Below, in pieces: positions 17,242-61,300 of a DNA stretch of 64,000 nt. The DNA is from Myxococcota bacterium (GTDB lineage: Bacteria; Myxococcota_A; UBA9160; UBA4427). The first letter of the stretch is position 1, and the number at the start of each line of letters is the position of its first letter. Location: the NCBI GenBank assembly GCA_028278345.1, contig JANQEL010000159.1:1-64000 (forward strand), given 5' to 3'. The notes below the pieces were generated by a model that was not told where the DNA came from, searched no databases, and worked only from the letters and a program-made list of their open reading frames with translations. The position numbers and the translations under genes were made by a program.

Positions 17242-18423
17242 ATGGCAGGCGCGCTTTCCGGCTATCGCATCATCGACGTCACCCAGGTGATCTCGGGCCC
17301 CCTCGCAACACGCGTCCTGGCGGACCAGGGAGCCGACGTCATCAAGATCGAACCGCCGACCGGCGACATCCTGCGTCACATGGGTGGTATCGAGGGTCTC
17401 GCCCCCACCTTCACCACGATCAACCGCAGCAAGCGTTCGGTGGTGCTCGACCTCAAGAAGGCCGAAGCCATCGAAGCGTTGAAGCGCCTGGTGAAGGACG
17501 CCGACGTCTTCATCCAGAACAGCCGCCCGGGGGCCGCCGATGCGATGGGCATCGGCGAGAAGGTGATCCGGGAGATCCGCCCGGACATCGTCTACGTCTC
17601 GATCTCGGGGTTCGGTGAAGAAGGCCCCTACTCGCACAAGCGCGTCTACGATCCGCTGATCCAGGGCATGTCGACGCTGACCGAGATCCAGGGCGGGCCG
17701 GGCGGTCGGCCCAGCCTGATGCGCGTGATCATTCCCGACAAGGTGACGGCGCTGACCGCTTCCCAGGCGATCACCGCGGCCCTGCTCGCACGCGAACGCA
17801 CGGGAGCGGGGCAGCACGTCCGCCTCTCGATGCTCGACGCCGTGCTCGCCTTCACCTGGCCGGAGGGCATGGCCTACCACACGTTCGTCGCGGACCACCT
17901 GCCCAAGCCCAAGCCGGTGGCGCGACGCGACCTCGTCTACGAAACCAGCGATGGCTACGTGATCGTATCGACGGTGGCCCACCGCGAGTGGGAGGGTTTC
18001 TGTCGCGCCGCCGAAAAGCACGAGTGGCTCGAAGATCCGCGCTTCCAGGACACGGCGGGTCTGGTGAAGAACGCGAAGGAACGCCTCGAGATGATGGCGG
18101 AGGCCCTGCTCGAAAAGCCCACCGAGCACTGGCTCGAGGCCCTCGATCGCGAAGACGTGCCCTGTGCCCCCGTGCTCTTCCGCGACAACGTGCACCTGCA
18201 CCCGCAGGTCGTCGCGAACGGCATCATCGTCGAGGACGAGCACCCGGTGGTGGGCAAGGTCCGCCAGACGCGCCCCGCGGAACGCATGGACGGCACCCCT
18301 TCCGAGATCTCCCGCCCCGCCCCGACCCTCGGCCAGGACACCGACGAAGTGCTCGCGGAGTTCGGCTTCGCCGAGGGTGAGATCGCGGCGCTACGTGAGA
18401 TCGGCGCCCTGGGAAAGGCGTGA
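17242..18423 (+). CDS. Family III CoA-transferase (CaiB/BaiF)
   Basis: A 393-residue enzyme that moves CoA between carboxylic acids or acts as an alpha-methylacyl-CoA racemase; the class is clear but the reaction is not. The N-terminal block IIDVTQVISGPLATRVLADQ, GADVIKIEPP, NRSKRSVVLDLK and YVSISGFGEEGPYSHKRVYD are typical. The catalytic Asp is in SMLDAVLAF. ATG at 17242 starts the domain precisely. Its stop overlaps the following glutathione transferase by 4 bases (GTGA), so these two form an operon; the APH-fold gene 67 bases upstream may belong to it. Confidence 0.92.
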   Translation: MAGALSGYRIIDVTQVISGPLATRVLADQGADVIKIEPPTGDILRHMGGIEGLAPTFTTINRSKRSVVLDLKKAEAIEALKRLVKDADVFIQNSRPGAADAMGIGEKVIREIRPDIVYVSISGFGEEGPYSHKRVYDPLIQGMSTLTEIQGGPGGRPSLMRVIIPDKVTALTASQAITAALLARERTGAGQHVRLSMLDAVLAFTWPEGMAYHTFVADHLPKPKPVARRDLVYETSDGYVIVSTVAHREWEGFCRAAEKHEWLEDPRFQDTAGLVKNAKERLEMMAEALLEKPTEHWLEALDREDVPCAPVLFRDNVHLHPQVVANGIIVEDEHPVVGKVRQTRPAERMDGTPSEISRPAPTLGQDTDEVLAEFGFAEGEIAALREIGALGKA

Positions 18424-19136
18424 GCCGGGCGATGGCCGAAGCGGTTTCCGACGCCAGCGAAACGCCCTGCATCTGGGGGGTCGGCACCTCCCGCACGATC
18501 CGCGCCCACTGGACGCTTTGCGAACTCGGTGTCGACTACACCTGGCACGACATCATCCCGCGCACCGAGACGATGGAAGACCCCGCGTTTCGCGCGGTGA
18601 GCACGCGGGGGAAGGTTCCGATCCTCGTGCATCGGGGACGGGTGATCGGGGAGTCCGGCGCGATCGCGCTGCACCTCGCCGATCACTACCGCGACCACAT
18701 GGCGCTCGCCCCCGAGCCTGCGGGTCTCGACCGGGCGGTCTTCATGGATCGCTACTGCTTCATGCTGATGGAACTCGACGCCCCCCTCTACATCATCAGG
18801 CGACACGAAGGCCTGGCCGACGTCTACGGGGAATCGAAGGTCGCGGCCGCTTCCGCGCGCGAGTACTACCAGCGTCAAGCGGGTGTCGCGAGCGAGTGGC
18901 TCGAGAAGACGGGCTTCGTCTTCGGCGAGAGCTTCAGCGTGGCCGACATCCTGCTCGCCAGTTGCAGCGCCTGGGCCGAGCTGGTCGGCGTGCAGCCTCG
19001 CGAAGCGATCGCGCGGCACCTCGAACGCGCGAAGACGCGCGAAGCCTTTGCCCTCGCGGCGCAGCGCAACTTCCCGCCCGCCGCCCTCGCGATGCTCGCC
19101 GCCCAGGGCAAGCCGCCGAGCGACGCGAACGCGTAG
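18420..19136 (+). CDS. Glutathione S-transferase family protein
   Basis: 238 residues with a thioredoxin-like N-terminal domain (CIWGVGTSRTIRAHWTLCEL; RGKVPILVHRGRVIGESGAI carries the cis-Pro and the glutamate/serine glutathione-binding motif) and an all-helical C-terminal domain ending near residue 220 (FSVADILLASCSAWAEL). It probably conjugates or isomerises with glutathione in the cytoplasm. GTG at 18420 overlaps the CoA-transferase stop; ATG at 18432 is an alternative. It ends one base before the stop of the convergent selenoprotein candidate, also a glutathione/thiol-fold enzyme, which may be functionally related. Confidence 0.88.
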   Translation: MSRAMAEAVSDASETPCIWGVGTSRTIRAHWTLCELGVDYTWHDIIPRTETMEDPAFRAVSTRGKVPILVHRGRVIGESGAIALHLADHYRDHMALAPEPAGLDRAVFMDRYCFMLMELDAPLYIIRRHEGLADVYGESKVAAASAREYYQRQAGVASEWLEKTGFVFGESFSVADILLASCSAWAELVGVQPREAIARHLERAKTREAFALAAQRNFPPAALAMLAAQGKPPSDANA

Positions 19137-19137
19137 C

Positions 19138-19764
19138 TCAGGTTTCGCCCGCGAGCTCCGGGTGCGTCAGGTAGTGGCGCACCAACTCGAAGCGATCGTT
19201 TCCCCAGAACATCTCGTCTCCGACGAAGATCGTGGGCACCCCGAAGACGCCGCGCGCGATTGCCTCGTCGGTATCGCGTTCGAGGCGATCCTCGAGTTCC
19301 GAAGAGTCGGCCCGTTCGAGGGCCGCGTCGGCATCGAGCCCCGCCTCGACGAGCAGGCGATGCAGCAGCGCGCGATCCGAGGGATCCGCCGGTTCGGCCC
19401 AGCGCGCCCGGTACATCGGATCGTGGAACTCGCGAAAGCGCCCCTCGTCCTTCGCCACCAGCGCCGCGCGCAGGGCGAGGGACGTATCCGTCTTCATGAA
19501 CTGCCGCGCGTCCGGCGAGATGGGGGCCCCACAGAGCTGCGACCAGTGGCGGACGCTGTTCTGGTAATCGTGGCTCTTTCGCTTCGACATCGTCGGCCGC
19601 GGACCGGCGGGCTCTTCACCGGGCGCCGGTTGCACGAGCTTGCGCAGCTTGACCGGCCGGAAGTCGAACTCGACGTCGAGATCGGCGAAGTAGGCATCTA
19701 ATCGGCAACTGCCGAAGTAGGCCCAGGGTCAGGCGTAGTCGTAGTAGAAGGGAAGCGTACGCAT
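19138..19764 (-). CDS. Putative selenoprotein: DsbA-family / 2-hydroxychromene-2-carboxylate isomerase-like, Sec12
   Basis: Read with UGA at codon 12 (19729-19731) as selenocysteine, this is a 208-residue thioredoxin-fold protein. The N-terminus MRTLPFYYDYA-Sec-PWAYFGS matches the DsbA/HCCA-isomerase pattern in which Cys or Ser precedes Pro at the active site. The C-terminal hallmark GVFGVPTIFVGDEMFWGNDR is intact, and no other disruption exists in the frame. ATG at 19762-19764 has CCGGGAGAA upstream. A hairpin directly after the UGA fits a bacterial SECIS. The same frame also ends in TGA (19138-19140). Usual family roles are glutathione-dependent isomerisation or thiol redox chemistry. If UGA were a plain stop, only a 164-residue product from GTG 19635, lacking the active site, could be made. 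A recent nonsense mutation is the alternative. Confidence 0.82.
19691..19725 (-). promoter_or_regulatory. Candidate bacterial SECIS hairpin (selenocysteine insertion element)
   Basis: Numbering the UGA as bases 1-3 of the mRNA, bases 18-21 (CGGC) pair with 26-29 (GCCG) around the tetraloop AGUU at 22-25, so G23 and U24 fall at the loop positions important in the E. coli fdhF element. U17 can be bulged with U16 pairing A30, as in fdhF. Below a C15/U31 mismatch, bases 12-14 pair with 32-34; after a 2-base bulge, bases 7-11 pair with 37-41 (one G-U). The hairpin runs through codons unusual here (TTA, AGT, CGA), consistent with selection on RNA structure. SelB recognition is inferred. Confidence 0.8.
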
Positions 19765-19811
19765 GGCGGTTCTCCCGGGTTTCGCTCTGGACCGATGGGT
19801 TCACCGCGAAC

Positions 19812-19975: not shown

Positions 19976-20551
19976 GTGAACGAAAGCCAGACCCAACGGA
20001 ATCATCCCGAAGCGAGTGGCCCGGCTGGTAGAACGGCCTCGGCCTTCGCCCTCTTCGCGCTCCTCGTCGTCCTCATCGGCGTCGCCGGTGTGGCCCCTGC
20101 ATCCGAGCCCCTGACCCCGAGCCTGGAACAGCGACGTACCTCGGCAGAGTTCCAGTACTCGTACAAGCAGCGCCCGACCGTCGACAGCCTCGTGATCGCC
20201 TGGACGAGCAACAAGATCGTTGCGAAGGGGAACAAGGGTGGCCCGTTGAATCTCGAAAAGCTTCCCCAGGGCGTGCGCTTCCGCCTCGAACGCCAACTGC
20301 GATTCTTCGCGCGCGGCATCATGCCGGTCGAACGCCTGCCCACCCGAAGCATCATCCAGGAGTTGGTGGCCGATCCCGAACTCGCCAAGACCGCCGACTT
20401 CGACTTCGATCCCCAGTCGGGCGAGATCGAGCTGCGCATGAAGGAAGAGCTCTGGAGGGCGACGCTCCGCTTCAACGCCTACCAGCTGGGACACGCGATC
20501 CGTACGACCGGTCGCTACGGGCTGGGGCGTGCCGAAGCGCTCGAGCCCTAG
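19976..20551 (+). CDS. Exported protein of unknown function
   Basis: 191 residues. A hydrophilic N-terminus of about 20 residues is followed by one hydrophobic segment (about 21-42, ending VAPASE), so it is a signal peptide or an anchor. The mature part is polar and mixed alpha/beta (QYSYKQRPTVDSLVIAW, QLRFFARGIMPVERLPTR), with no cysteines and no family I recognise. GTG at 19976 has AAGGAG upstream. Its stop codon shares the palindromic CTAG at 20548-20551 with the stop of the convergent glutathione transferase. Codon use resembles its neighbours, so it is probably a real gene. Confidence 0.65.
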   Translation: MNESQTQRNHPEASGPAGRTASAFALFALLVVLIGVAGVAPASEPLTPSLEQRRTSAEFQYSYKQRPTVDSLVIAWTSNKIVAKGNKGGPLNLEKLPQGVRFRLERQLRFFARGIMPVERLPTRSIIQELVADPELAKTADFDFDPQSGEIELRMKEELWRATLRFNAYQLGHAIRTTGRYGLGRAEALEP

Positions 20552-21255
20552 CCCTCTTCTTCCAGATGTCCCGTGCCCTGTCGGGTGAGCTTCGACAGGC
20601 GCTGGATGTGGCCGGAGAGGCTCGGCCGTGCGTCGAGCATGTCGGCGGTGCGGGGCATCGGCCCGTCGCGCATCACGAGCATCATCCCGAACACGGCGAG
20701 GTCGGCGACGCTCATCTCGTCGGCGTAGAAGAACTCGCGGGTGCCGAGGAAACCGACGAGATCGTCCATGCGGTTCTCGAGTTCGGAGAGGATCGAACGC
20801 ACACCGGGGATGTCCTCGACCGGAACCTCGTGTTCGATGCCCAGCCGCTGGTCGACGTGCTGGTGGATGCGTGAGAGCAGCCCGGGGGTCGCGTCGCGTT
20901 GCTGCCGCTCGTGCTCTTCGATCACGGCGAGCCAGCGATTCCAGTAGAAGGCAAAGCTCGAGTCGGACCATTCGGCGAGGCTCTGCTGCCGCCGCTTCAC
21001 GTTGGGATCACTCGAGTACAGCGACGGCTCGGGATAGAGTTCGTCGAGCCAGCCGATGATCTCGTTCGAGCCGGAGACACGCTTCCCATCCACTTCGAGA
21101 ACCGGAAGGATCTGCTTGTCCGGACTCAGCCGCTTGATCTCTTCCGAATCGCTGACCTCGCAGCGCAGGTACGCGACCTGTTTCAGCGCGAGCGCACAGG
21201 CGACCTTCTCCGTGAACGGATTCATCAGCTGCGAGTAGAGCTTGACGCTGGTCAT
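20548..21255 (-). CDS. Glutathione S-transferase family protein
   Basis: 235 residues. The N-terminal thioredoxin fold starts MTSVKLYSQLMNPFTEKVACAL, with ILPVLEVDGKRVSGSNEIIGWL carrying the cis-Pro and the acidic/Ser glutathione-binding site (here SN-E). The C-terminal helical domain includes FFYADEMSVADLAVFGM. There is no Cys at the classical N-terminal active site, so Ser or Tyr chemistry is more likely. ATG at 21253-21255. A TAGACT element (21354-21359) and an inverted repeat (21399-21427) lie upstream. It is convergent with the unknown exported gene. Confidence 0.88.
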   Translation of the reverse strand: MTSVKLYSQLMNPFTEKVACALALKQVAYLRCEVSDSEEIKRLSPDKQILPVLEVDGKRVSGSNEIIGWLDELYPEPSLYSSDPNVKRRQQSLAEWSDSSFAFYWNRWLAVIEEHERQQRDATPGLLSRIHQHVDQRLGIEHEVPVEDIPGVRSILSELENRMDDLVGFLGTREFFYADEMSVADLAVFGMMLVMRDGPMPRTADMLDARPSLSGHIQRLSKLTRQGTGHLEEEG

Positions 21256-28659: not shown

Positions 28660-29220
28660 ATGCCCGCCTTCCCCCGAGAAGAGATCCAGGAGATGGTCGA
28701 CCGCTGGGTCGCCGCCAACGACGAAGCCGGTCGCACGGGCGACTGGTCGCACATGAGCGCGTTCTTCCAGGAAGACGCGATCTACAGCTGGTGCACGGGC
28801 CCGAAGTGGGAGTTCGTCGCACGCGGTCGCCAGCAGATCCACGACTGGGCGTTCGGCAGCGAAATGGCCGGCCTCGAGAAGTGGACCTACCCCTACGTGC
28901 GCACCCTGATCGACGACCAGAAGGGGGAATTCATCGGCATCTGGCGTCAGGTCGCCCCGATCAAGGATCCCGATGGCGTGCCCTATGAGATCCACGGCAC
29001 CGGCGGTTCCTGGTTCCGCTACGGTGGCGACTTCAAGTGGGCCTGGCAGCGCGACTTCTTCGATCACGGCTGTGCCGGCGCCACGTTCGGCGCGATGATG
29101 CAGAACGGTGACCTCAACGAAACCATGCTCGAGCGCATGAAGAAGGGCAGCAAGATGCCGGGTTGGACGAAGCGCAGCGAGTTCAACTGGTTCGACACGC
29201 TGCTCGATCCCGAAGCCTGA
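28660..29220 (+). CDS. NTF2-like / SnoaL-type protein
   Basis: 186 residues. A cone-shaped NTF2-like fold is suggested by the N-terminal helix EEIQEMVDRWVAANDEAG, the early block WSHMSAFFQEDAIYSW, and later strands (GTGGSWFRYGGDFKWAWQRDFF). SnoaL-like proteins isomerise, cyclise or hydrate polyketide and steroid rings; some are only binding proteins. It has many Trp and Phe residues, suiting a hydrophobic pocket. GGAATCG-type spacing with AAAGGAA ahead of the ATG provides the ribosome site. It lies in the CYP51 operon, and the next gene begins at the base after its TGA. Confidence 0.75.
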   Translation: MPAFPREEIQEMVDRWVAANDEAGRTGDWSHMSAFFQEDAIYSWCTGPKWEFVARGRQQIHDWAFGSEMAGLEKWTYPYVRTLIDDQKGEFIGIWRQVAPIKDPDGVPYEIHGTGGSWFRYGGDFKWAWQRDFFDHGCAGATFGAMMQNGDLNETMLERMKKGSKMPGWTKRSEFNWFDTLLDPEA

Positions 29221-58385: not shown

Positions 58386-61300
58386 TCAGACGAAGGAGAT
58401 CCGCTTCTTCTTTCTCTTCTTCGGGGGGTCGGCGGGGCCATCCTCTTCGACGACTTCGGCGGTCTCGGCGACGACTTCCTCGGCCTCGACTTCGGCCACG
58501 ACATCGTCGAAGGACTCGAAGGTCTCGGCCTCGGGCTCTTCCTCTTCGGCCTCCACCTCGGCGACGAGATCGTCGAAGCTCTCGAAGCCCCCTTCGCCCT
58601 GGGTCTGCGAATCCTCGGCGAGTTCGACCGGCTCTTCGCCGTTGGCGCGTGCGGCGACGCGTTCGATGCACTCGTCGATCGTGGGGATCGAATCGTCGAT
58701 CGCCTTTGCGGCTTCGAAGGCTTCCTTAGCGCGTTCGAAGTCTTCGGCGCCCTCGAAGGCGCGGCCGAGGTCGAAGCGCAGCCCGGCCTGCTTGGGCTCG
58801 GGAACGTCCTCGCTGGCGAGGGCCTGTTCGAGGTGGTTGGTCGCGTCGCTGAAGCGGCCGAGGTCGATCGCGCAGAGCCCCATCATGTGCAGGCTCTCGA
58901 GGCGATGGTTCGGGCTGTCGAGGCAGATGCGGAACTCGCCGAGGGCATCGTCGTAGAGTTCCATGCCGCGGTAGGCGATGCCGAGATCGAAGCGCGTCTC
59001 GAAGTCGTCTTCGCCGAGGGTCTTCTCCACCCCCGACTTGAAGTCCTTGAAGATCGAGGCAAAGCCCTCTTCCTCGGAGGTCGGCTCGCCCGAGGCGGTG
59101 GTTTCGCCTTCGGCCTCTTCCTCTTCGTCTTCGAGGCTCTCGCGCAGCTCGGCTGCGAGATCGAAGGAATCGTCGTCGTCTTCCTGGGCTGCGGCGACCT
59201 CTTCCTCGGCCTCTTCGTCTTCATCGACCGCGACCTCGTCGTCGACCTCGAAGGCGACTTCGTCTTCGGTCTCGTCTTCGATCGCGCTCTCGGCCTGCAC
59301 CAGCGGCATCGTGTTGTCAGCCGCGGAGAGATCGACGCTCGCTTCCTCATCATCCGACTCGGTCACGTCGAGGGCGTCGTCGTCGAGTTCGACGCTGACC
59401 TCGACCTCGGAAGCGTCGTCGTCTTCTTCGTCGTCGCCGAGGCTCTCCTCGCTGAGTTCGATGCCTTCGCCTTCGACGCCGGTGGTGACGTCGCTCTCGT
59501 CGACCGCGGCGTCGCCTTCCACCTCGATCTCGAATTCCGAGGCGTCGTCCTCGGCGTCGAATTCGACTGCGATCTCGAGTTCGCTGTTCTCGCCGAGGGC
59601 GTCTTCTTCGTCGTCGGCGTCGGAGTCGACATCGGCGTCGCTGTCTTCGAACGGCAGTTCCGAGGGATCGAGAGTGACGTCCGCGTCGACGGTGGCGACT
59701 TCATCCGCCGCGGCGACACTCGCCGAAGCACCCGGATCCTCGCCGCGCGCCTCCTGCAACTCCCCGAGTCGCACCATGGCGCTCGGGTGATTCGGGCACA
59801 TCTCGAGGATGCGCTTGTAGATCGCCTCGGCTTCGTCGAAGAGCTCCTGCGCCATGTAGAACTCGGCTTCTTCGAGATCTTCGGCGACCTTCTCGGTGTC
59901 GACGCTCTCCGCGGCGGTGGCCGATTGCTCGGTCAGCGACTGGCTCGCGGTCGCGTCTTCGGCGTCGAGATCGAGGTCGTCGGTATCGAAATCGTCGAGG
60001 GAGATTTCTTCGTCATCCCCGACATCGTCCGCAGCGACTTCGGCCTCTTCGGAAACATCTTCATCGAGATCGTCGAGATCGACGTCGACCTCGATCTCCG
60101 AGATGTCGTCTTCGCCCATGGCCTCGAGCGAGCCGTCGAGGGATTCATCGAGGGAGATCTCGCTCTCGTCGTCCTCGAGGTCGCCCTGCCCGGTGGCGTC
60201 GCCCGCGTCGTCGAAGTCCACGTCGAGATCGAGTTCGATCTCGTCTTCCATGTCAGAGACCTGCGATTCGTCCGCGCTCGGTGCGGCCGGGGCCTTGGAC
60301 GGAGCGAACTCCGCCGCCGCGTCGGGGTCGAGCACCGAGATGCGCTCGCGCAAGACATCGAGGGCCGCATCGTCGTGGGCGTTCTGGGCGAGTTCTGCGG
60401 CCTGCTTCCAGTAGTTGACGGCGCGCGGTGCATCGCCGGCGTCGGCGTAGCACTCGCCGAGCTTCTCGAGGGCGTCGCGATGCCGCGGCTCCTGGCCGAG
60501 GATCGCTTCGAGGCTCGCGATCGCCTGGTCGCGCTTGCCGTAGCGCAGGTAGACACTGGCCTCGGCGAAGAGCTGATCGGGATCGCCTTCGGGAAGCGAC
60601 GCATCCGAATCCTCCGCGGGATCGTCGAGGTCGCTGTCCATCAACTCGGGGCCATCCGCCAGCTCAGGGCTGTCCGCCAGCTCAGGGCTGTCCGTCAGCT
60701 CCGGGCCGTCCGTCAGCTCGGGACCGTCCGTCAGCTCGGGACCGTCCAGGAGCTCGGGGCTGTCATCGGCGGGATCGTCGAGCTCGAGGGCGTCGTCGTC
60801 GTCGCTGATGTCGATGAACGAATCGTCGTCGCTGTCGGCGCTCGCCCCGTCGTCGGCGAGGAAGTCATCGTCGAGAAAGTCGTCGTCGAGCAGTCCGTCG
60901 TCGCCAGCCTCGTCGTCCAGCGCGAGCGCGTCGTCGCCGGGCAGCCGTTGCATCAACTCGCGCGCGCGGTCGTCGTCGCCCTGGCTGCGGTAGAGCTGGG
61001 CCATCTGCTTGGTGACTTCGGTGAGTTCGTCGGTCTTGCCGAGCTCGCCGTAGATTGTGTTCAGCAGATCGAAGTAGCCCTCGGTGTCGGGGGCCTTGTC
61101 GAAGGCGCGGCGGGCGTACGGCTCGGCGCGGTCGGTCTGCGAGAGTTGAACGAGGGCGCGGGCCAGCGCGAACTCGACGTCGTCGCGCTCGGGTTGGATC
61201 TCGAGAACGCGCTCATAGACGGGCACCAGTTGATCCGTCGCACCCTGGCGCACCAGCTCCTCGGCGACGGCTTCGTACTCCGAGACCGCGTCGTCGATCA

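Follow-up and report, generated by a model that had tools for sequence, protein, structure and literature searches.

Selenoproteins with a DSBA domain (PF01323) have been catalogued in several sources. The GOS survey (PMC2398784) lists DsbA 1 to 3, with a UxxC motif in DsbA 1 and 2 and a UxxV motif in DsbA 3. Table 1 of a 2026 review (PMC13188914) gives a 'DsbA-like protein form 2 (crotonase/enoyl-CoA hydratase family protein)', assigned to PF01323 with the motif DxxUP and the record MDP6049977.1, and cites Peng et al. 2016 (its reference 62) for it; DsbA-like form 2 is listed elsewhere as PRK06023, KAA1296466.1 (PMC9312934). The main text of Peng et al. 2016 contains no description of the DxxUP family. 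Human GSTK1 depends critically on its active-site Ser16, and reports credit the enzyme with GSH conjugation as well as peroxidase and glutaredoxin-like activity (PMC10295636).

The gene described here lies in the window, that is, the whole 64,000-nucleotide stretch of the Myxococcota contig JANQEL010000159.1 that was analysed. A minus-strand frame of 208 codons (19764-19138) runs from an ATG at 19764-19762 to a terminal TGA at 19140-19138, with a putative Shine-Dalgarno sequence, GGGAGA (19771-19776, minus strand), recognized by eye just upstream of the ATG. Its sole internal stop is a TGA at codon 12 (19731-19729, minus strand), in the context MRTLPFYYDYA-U-PWAYFGSCR. The Pfam DSBA domain (PF01323) spans residues 4-199 of the translated frame (1.6e-39); because this match begins before the TGA and runs on past it, homology extends to both sides of the codon. 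An earlier note on this DNA, made from the letters alone, had described a frame interrupted only at codon 12, and both the translation and the domain match bear it out. We consider it very probable that this UGA is read as selenocysteine, judging from an in-frame TGA inside a conserved domain that is paired with Cys in homologues. Translation, relatives, Pfam and a structure model support the gene (19138-19764, minus strand) well enough for it to be annotated as a putative selenoprotein of 208 aa with Sec12 and a DSBA fold like that of 2-hydroxychromene-2-carboxylate (HCCA) isomerase and kappa-class glutathione S-transferase (GST). The evidence base throughout is the DNA of metagenome-assembled genomes.

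The search for relatives started from 60 related genomes and was then widened to the phylum and to GTDB genomes; the site could be read in 26 distinct close family members with 50-87% identity. Ten of these have TGA at codon 12 (the window, G002, G003, G028, G029, G015, L055, L057, L060 and L137), and the other 16 have TGT or TGC; no sense codon other than Cys was found at codon 12 within this clade of 26. Identity to the window protein is 87% for G002, 70% for G003 and 65-67% for G028, G029 and G015. The TGA-bearing relatives come from several orders and from independent assemblies, and most of the named records among the relatives are metagenome assemblies from Myxococcota or 'Deltaproteobacteria'. 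Distant paralogues (at most 37% identity) have Ser at the site, in the motif D-x-x-S-P. No TGA-bearing relative appeared among the matches listed from 385 Alphaproteobacteria genomes, where the readable sites are Ser, and no relative was found in the viral contigs searched. Because nine other genomes carry TGA at the identical codon, its presence here is not due to chance. The earlier note had proposed a search for homologues with TGA or TGC at this position, and had held that relatives with sense codons only would speak against its reading; the search returned TGA in nine relatives and TGT or TGC in 16.

Two other records deserve mention. L050 (NZGT01000159.1) is titled 'Spirochaeta sp.'; its Sec gene clusters with the Myxococcota copies, the genome matching it (G015) is placed in the window's own family, and the title is probably a mislabel. 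Separately, in a different DSBA/FrnE-like gene of genome G014, an in-frame TGA (L143:1385-1387, minus strand) takes the place of the first Cys in the CPWC motif (SDYL-U-PWC), a context from which the product is likely to be a UxxC selenoprotein.

The structure model of the window protein (pLDDT 90.6, pTM 0.87) predicts a thioredoxin fold with a helical insertion, as in HCCA isomerase and kappa-class GST, and its best PDB matches are the HCCA isomerase 2imd (TM 0.80) and the kappa GST 1r4w/1yzx (TM 0.79). NCBIfam has no dedicated model for the family, its weak match, NF041057, lying far under the cut-off. U12 stands immediately ahead of a helix (residues 13-25), and its aligned counterpart in 2imd is the DxxSP serine; the catalytic Ser of HCCA isomerase and kappa-class GST is absent, its place being taken by Sec12 and, in relatives, by Cys. 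All 26 members carry U/C-P-W-A and lack the CxxC of dithiol DsbA/FrnE proteins, a motif that rules out a dithiol mechanism of the DsbA/FrnE type.

We propose that the product is a cytosolic selenoprotein belonging to the HCCA-isomerase/kappa-class-GST branch of the DSBA superfamily. Its Sec12 would sit immediately ahead of helix 1 of the thioredoxin fold and face a conserved GVPT loop (presumably the cis-Pro loop). The enzyme may bind glutathione, and Sec12 would then act as a monothiol (UPWA, no CxxC) in a GSH-dependent reductase, peroxidase or transferase, with a small electrophile, a peroxide or a mixed disulfide as candidate substrate. Glutathione binding is suggested by the fold alone, and we give a GSH-dependent monothiol selenoenzyme about an even chance. 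The explanation as a whole, recoding together with this chemistry, appears likely, a judgement weighted to the recoding.

The strongest competing explanation concerns the chemistry. The protein could be a true HCCA isomerase or kappa-type transferase whose Sec does no more than tune the activation of glutathione and performs no selenol redox reaction. These two enzymes are the best matches in both fold and sequence, the WGNDR motif is common to the window protein and 2imd, and among the genes nearby are a P450, a pair of CoA-transferase family III genes and the two GSTs. Against this, the whole clade has Sec or Cys in place of the catalytic Ser, Sec usually sits where nucleophilic or redox chemistry is used, and identity to 2imd is only 25%. 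We regard a true isomerase or transferase as possible but rather unlikely.

The earlier note had also pointed to a convergent GST one base away as a sign of thiol chemistry. The adjacency is real: the frame of that gene (18420-19136, plus strand; GST Pfam matches) ends at 19136 and the Sec gene at 19138. This gene and most of the neighbourhood are common only to the closest relative, at 87% identity. Upstream of the Sec gene and on the same strand is another GST gene (20548-21255, minus strand; GST Pfam matches), which three genomes of the genus retain and which in G003 immediately precedes the Sec gene. At the more distant Sec and Cys loci the neighbours are unrelated. Conservation of the nearby GSTs thus stops at the genus, so that they say little about function; the argument from the neighbour is weak, and we set aside the idea that an operon with GST points to the function. 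Elsewhere in the window, a 191-aa ORF at 19976-20551 (plus strand) has no Pfam match and is conserved only in the closest relative (L047). In-frame TGAs also separate two long GC3-rich open frames at 29218 (plus strand) and at 58388 (minus strand); each case looks like two ordinary genes that happen to follow one another in one frame, and not like recoding.

Another line of evidence for recoding is the sequence that follows the UGA. The 39 nt after it fold at -15.0 kcal/mol (z -2.64), and 3 of 200 shuffled sequences folded as well. The predicted structure is a bacterial SECIS-like hairpin at 19692-19725 (minus strand), supported by folding and conservation, with the core UCGGC-AGUU-GCCGA at 19715-19702 and the loop AGUU at 19710-19707, starting 18 nt past the UGA. 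The published bSECIS rule asks for a G in the first two loop positions, a spacing of 16-37 nt and an MFE of -7.5 or lower, with all of which the window hairpin agrees (AGUU loop, 18 nt, -15.0 kcal/mol). The same rule alone is also passed by 297 of 1000 random TGAs of the window (30%), by 381 of 1000 synonymous recodings and by 10 of the 16 Cys genes. Since controls pass too, these generic criteria are weak, and we dropped them as proof; only the conserved core counts.

That core is far more selective. The string GGC-AGT-TGC-CG is identical at the nucleotide level in all 10 Sec genes, and the core is absent from the Cys genes, which use AGC (12 of 16), GGA/GGG and CGC/CGG at the corresponding codons. 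An AGUU loop on a stem of at least 5 bp occurs in 8 of 10 Sec genes, in none of the 16 Cys genes and in 4 of 1000 synonymous recodings. Between Sec lineages, the five core codons show a synonymous codon identity of 0.87 versus 0.49 for the rest of the gene, and the value reaches 0.97 when the stretch compared is shifted one codon earlier, the top value of 188 such stretches; in Cys pairs the corresponding figures are 0.47 for these codons and 0.55 for the rest of the gene. In the window gene, the outer stem includes the Leu codon TTA, which does not occur once among 282 Leu codons of the surrounding genes. An Rfam search with the hairpin gave no match. Cys20 is kept in all Sec members; because its codon falls within the hairpin, this conservation may reflect a constraint on the RNA.

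These results bear on whether the frame is functional at all. Codon 12 is a single base from TGC and TGG, and the window belongs to a draft metagenome-assembled genome with an estimated contamination of 5.9%, so that one might suspect a true stop or a misread TGC in a decaying or mis-assembled frame. However, TGA stands at the same codon in nine other genomes, in which the rest of the protein is intact and conserved, and a decaying gene would not retain a hairpin constrained at synonymous sites. An error in a single assembly cannot account for a TGA shared by independent genomes, and we consider a pseudogene or assembly error very improbable.

Translation might instead begin downstream of the TGA, for example at GTG 19635, yielding a truncated protein of 165 aa. 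An open frame from that codon does exist, and automatic annotation would probably choose it; selenoproteins are routinely mis-annotated as truncated genes. Yet such a start would cost the fold its first strand and helix together with the active-site motif, and conservation at the protein level is present before and just after the TGA in all 26 Sec and Cys members. We consider a downstream start just as improbable as a pseudogene or assembly error.

Reading of codon 12 as selenocysteine is also consistent with the machinery of the host. Its own genome encodes SelA (513 bits), SelB (294 bits), SelD (316 bits) and a tRNA-Sec (73 bits) with the anticodon TCA (UCA), and SelB and tRNA-Sec above curated cut-offs are also present in the TGA-bearing genomes G002, G003, G015, G028 and G029. 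The earlier note had named selA, selB, selC and selD as the genes to look for, and a lack of selB and selC as grounds for abandoning its reading; all four were found, SelB and tRNA-Sec among them. The host SelD gene (L139, G000:C175:33971-34897) itself carries TGA at the canonical GGUARK Sec site and so serves as an internal positive control for UGA recoding. In the mechanism we propose, SelB and Sec-tRNA(UCA) of the host would decode the UGA of codon 12, directed by the hairpin with the AGUU loop. The claim that Sec12 stands in place of a catalytic Cys is strongly supported by the Sec/Cys pairing (TGA in 10 family members, TGT or TGC in 16, Ser in distant paralogues), by the complete Sec machinery and by the conserved hairpin after the UGA. 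The least probable of the alternatives, that a general code change or a suppressor makes this UGA Trp or Cys, is compatible with a UGA that is decoded as something and with the existence of Cys relatives, but UGA is a normal stop in this host (4 of 8 neighbouring genes checked terminate in TGA), and the UCA-anticodon tRNA-Sec, SelB and the TGA of SelD all argue for selenocysteine.

In the family tree, the Sec genes form a six-member clade and three scattered lineages. Forcing a single Sec clade was rejected (p-AU 8.7e-6), and we counted at least four changes of Sec/Cys label, with several inner branches being weak. The rejection of the constraint indicates that Sec and Cys have interchanged in the family, as read from these gene sequences. 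We offer only tentatively the idea that a Ser-type scaffold of HCCA isomerase or kappa GST became a monothiol Cys/Sec enzyme with new GSH-dependent chemistry in a Myxococcota lineage, Sec being gained or lost several times and the hairpin kept or rebuilt. Our literature search found no described selenoproteome for Myxococcota, and the present data reveal repeated Sec/Cys exchange in metagenome-assembled genomes of this phylum. Ser, Cys and Sec all occur at one active-site position within this one fold, which makes testable what Sec adds to a GSH-type site; if the proposal is true, the genes would form a separate selenoprotein family that has yet to be described, and a natural set for comparing the three residues.

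Among known systems, FrnE-type DsbA oxidoreductases (5cnw, 3gl5) belong to the same superfamily as this protein, are cytosolic and have a thioredoxin fold, but they carry CPWC, whereas the U/C-P-W-A found here has no resolving Cys in the motif. HCCA isomerase 2imd and kappa GST 1r4w/1yzx resemble it in fold (TM 0.79-0.80), in size, in the placement of the catalytic residue where helix 1 begins and, for 2imd, in the WGNDR motif; they differ in having a catalytic Ser where this family has Sec or, in relatives, Cys, at 21-25% identity, and the activity here is a prediction. The DsbA 1-3 selenoproteins of the GOS survey are likewise PF01323 proteins; DsbA 1 and 2 are UxxC as opposed to U-P-W-A (UxxA) here, and DsbA 3 also lacks the second Cys. 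Compared by domain and motif alone, the nearest entry is 'DsbA-like form 2', which is alike in PF01323 and in the motif, D9-Y10-A11-U12-P13 being DxxUP. The name of that entry includes crotonase/enoyl-CoA hydratase, whereas no crotonase domain was found fused to the gene or beside it among the neighbours scanned at the loci covered; the entry itself comes without function, structure, SECIS or phylogeny. The earlier note had suggested that the selenoprotein may be new. Our search found no literature joining HCCA isomerase with a selenoprotein, but the fit of DYAUP to a DxxUP/PF01323 motif already present in PMC13188914 weakens that suggestion. The gene is a well-supported, little-studied selenoprotein rather than a wholly new kind.
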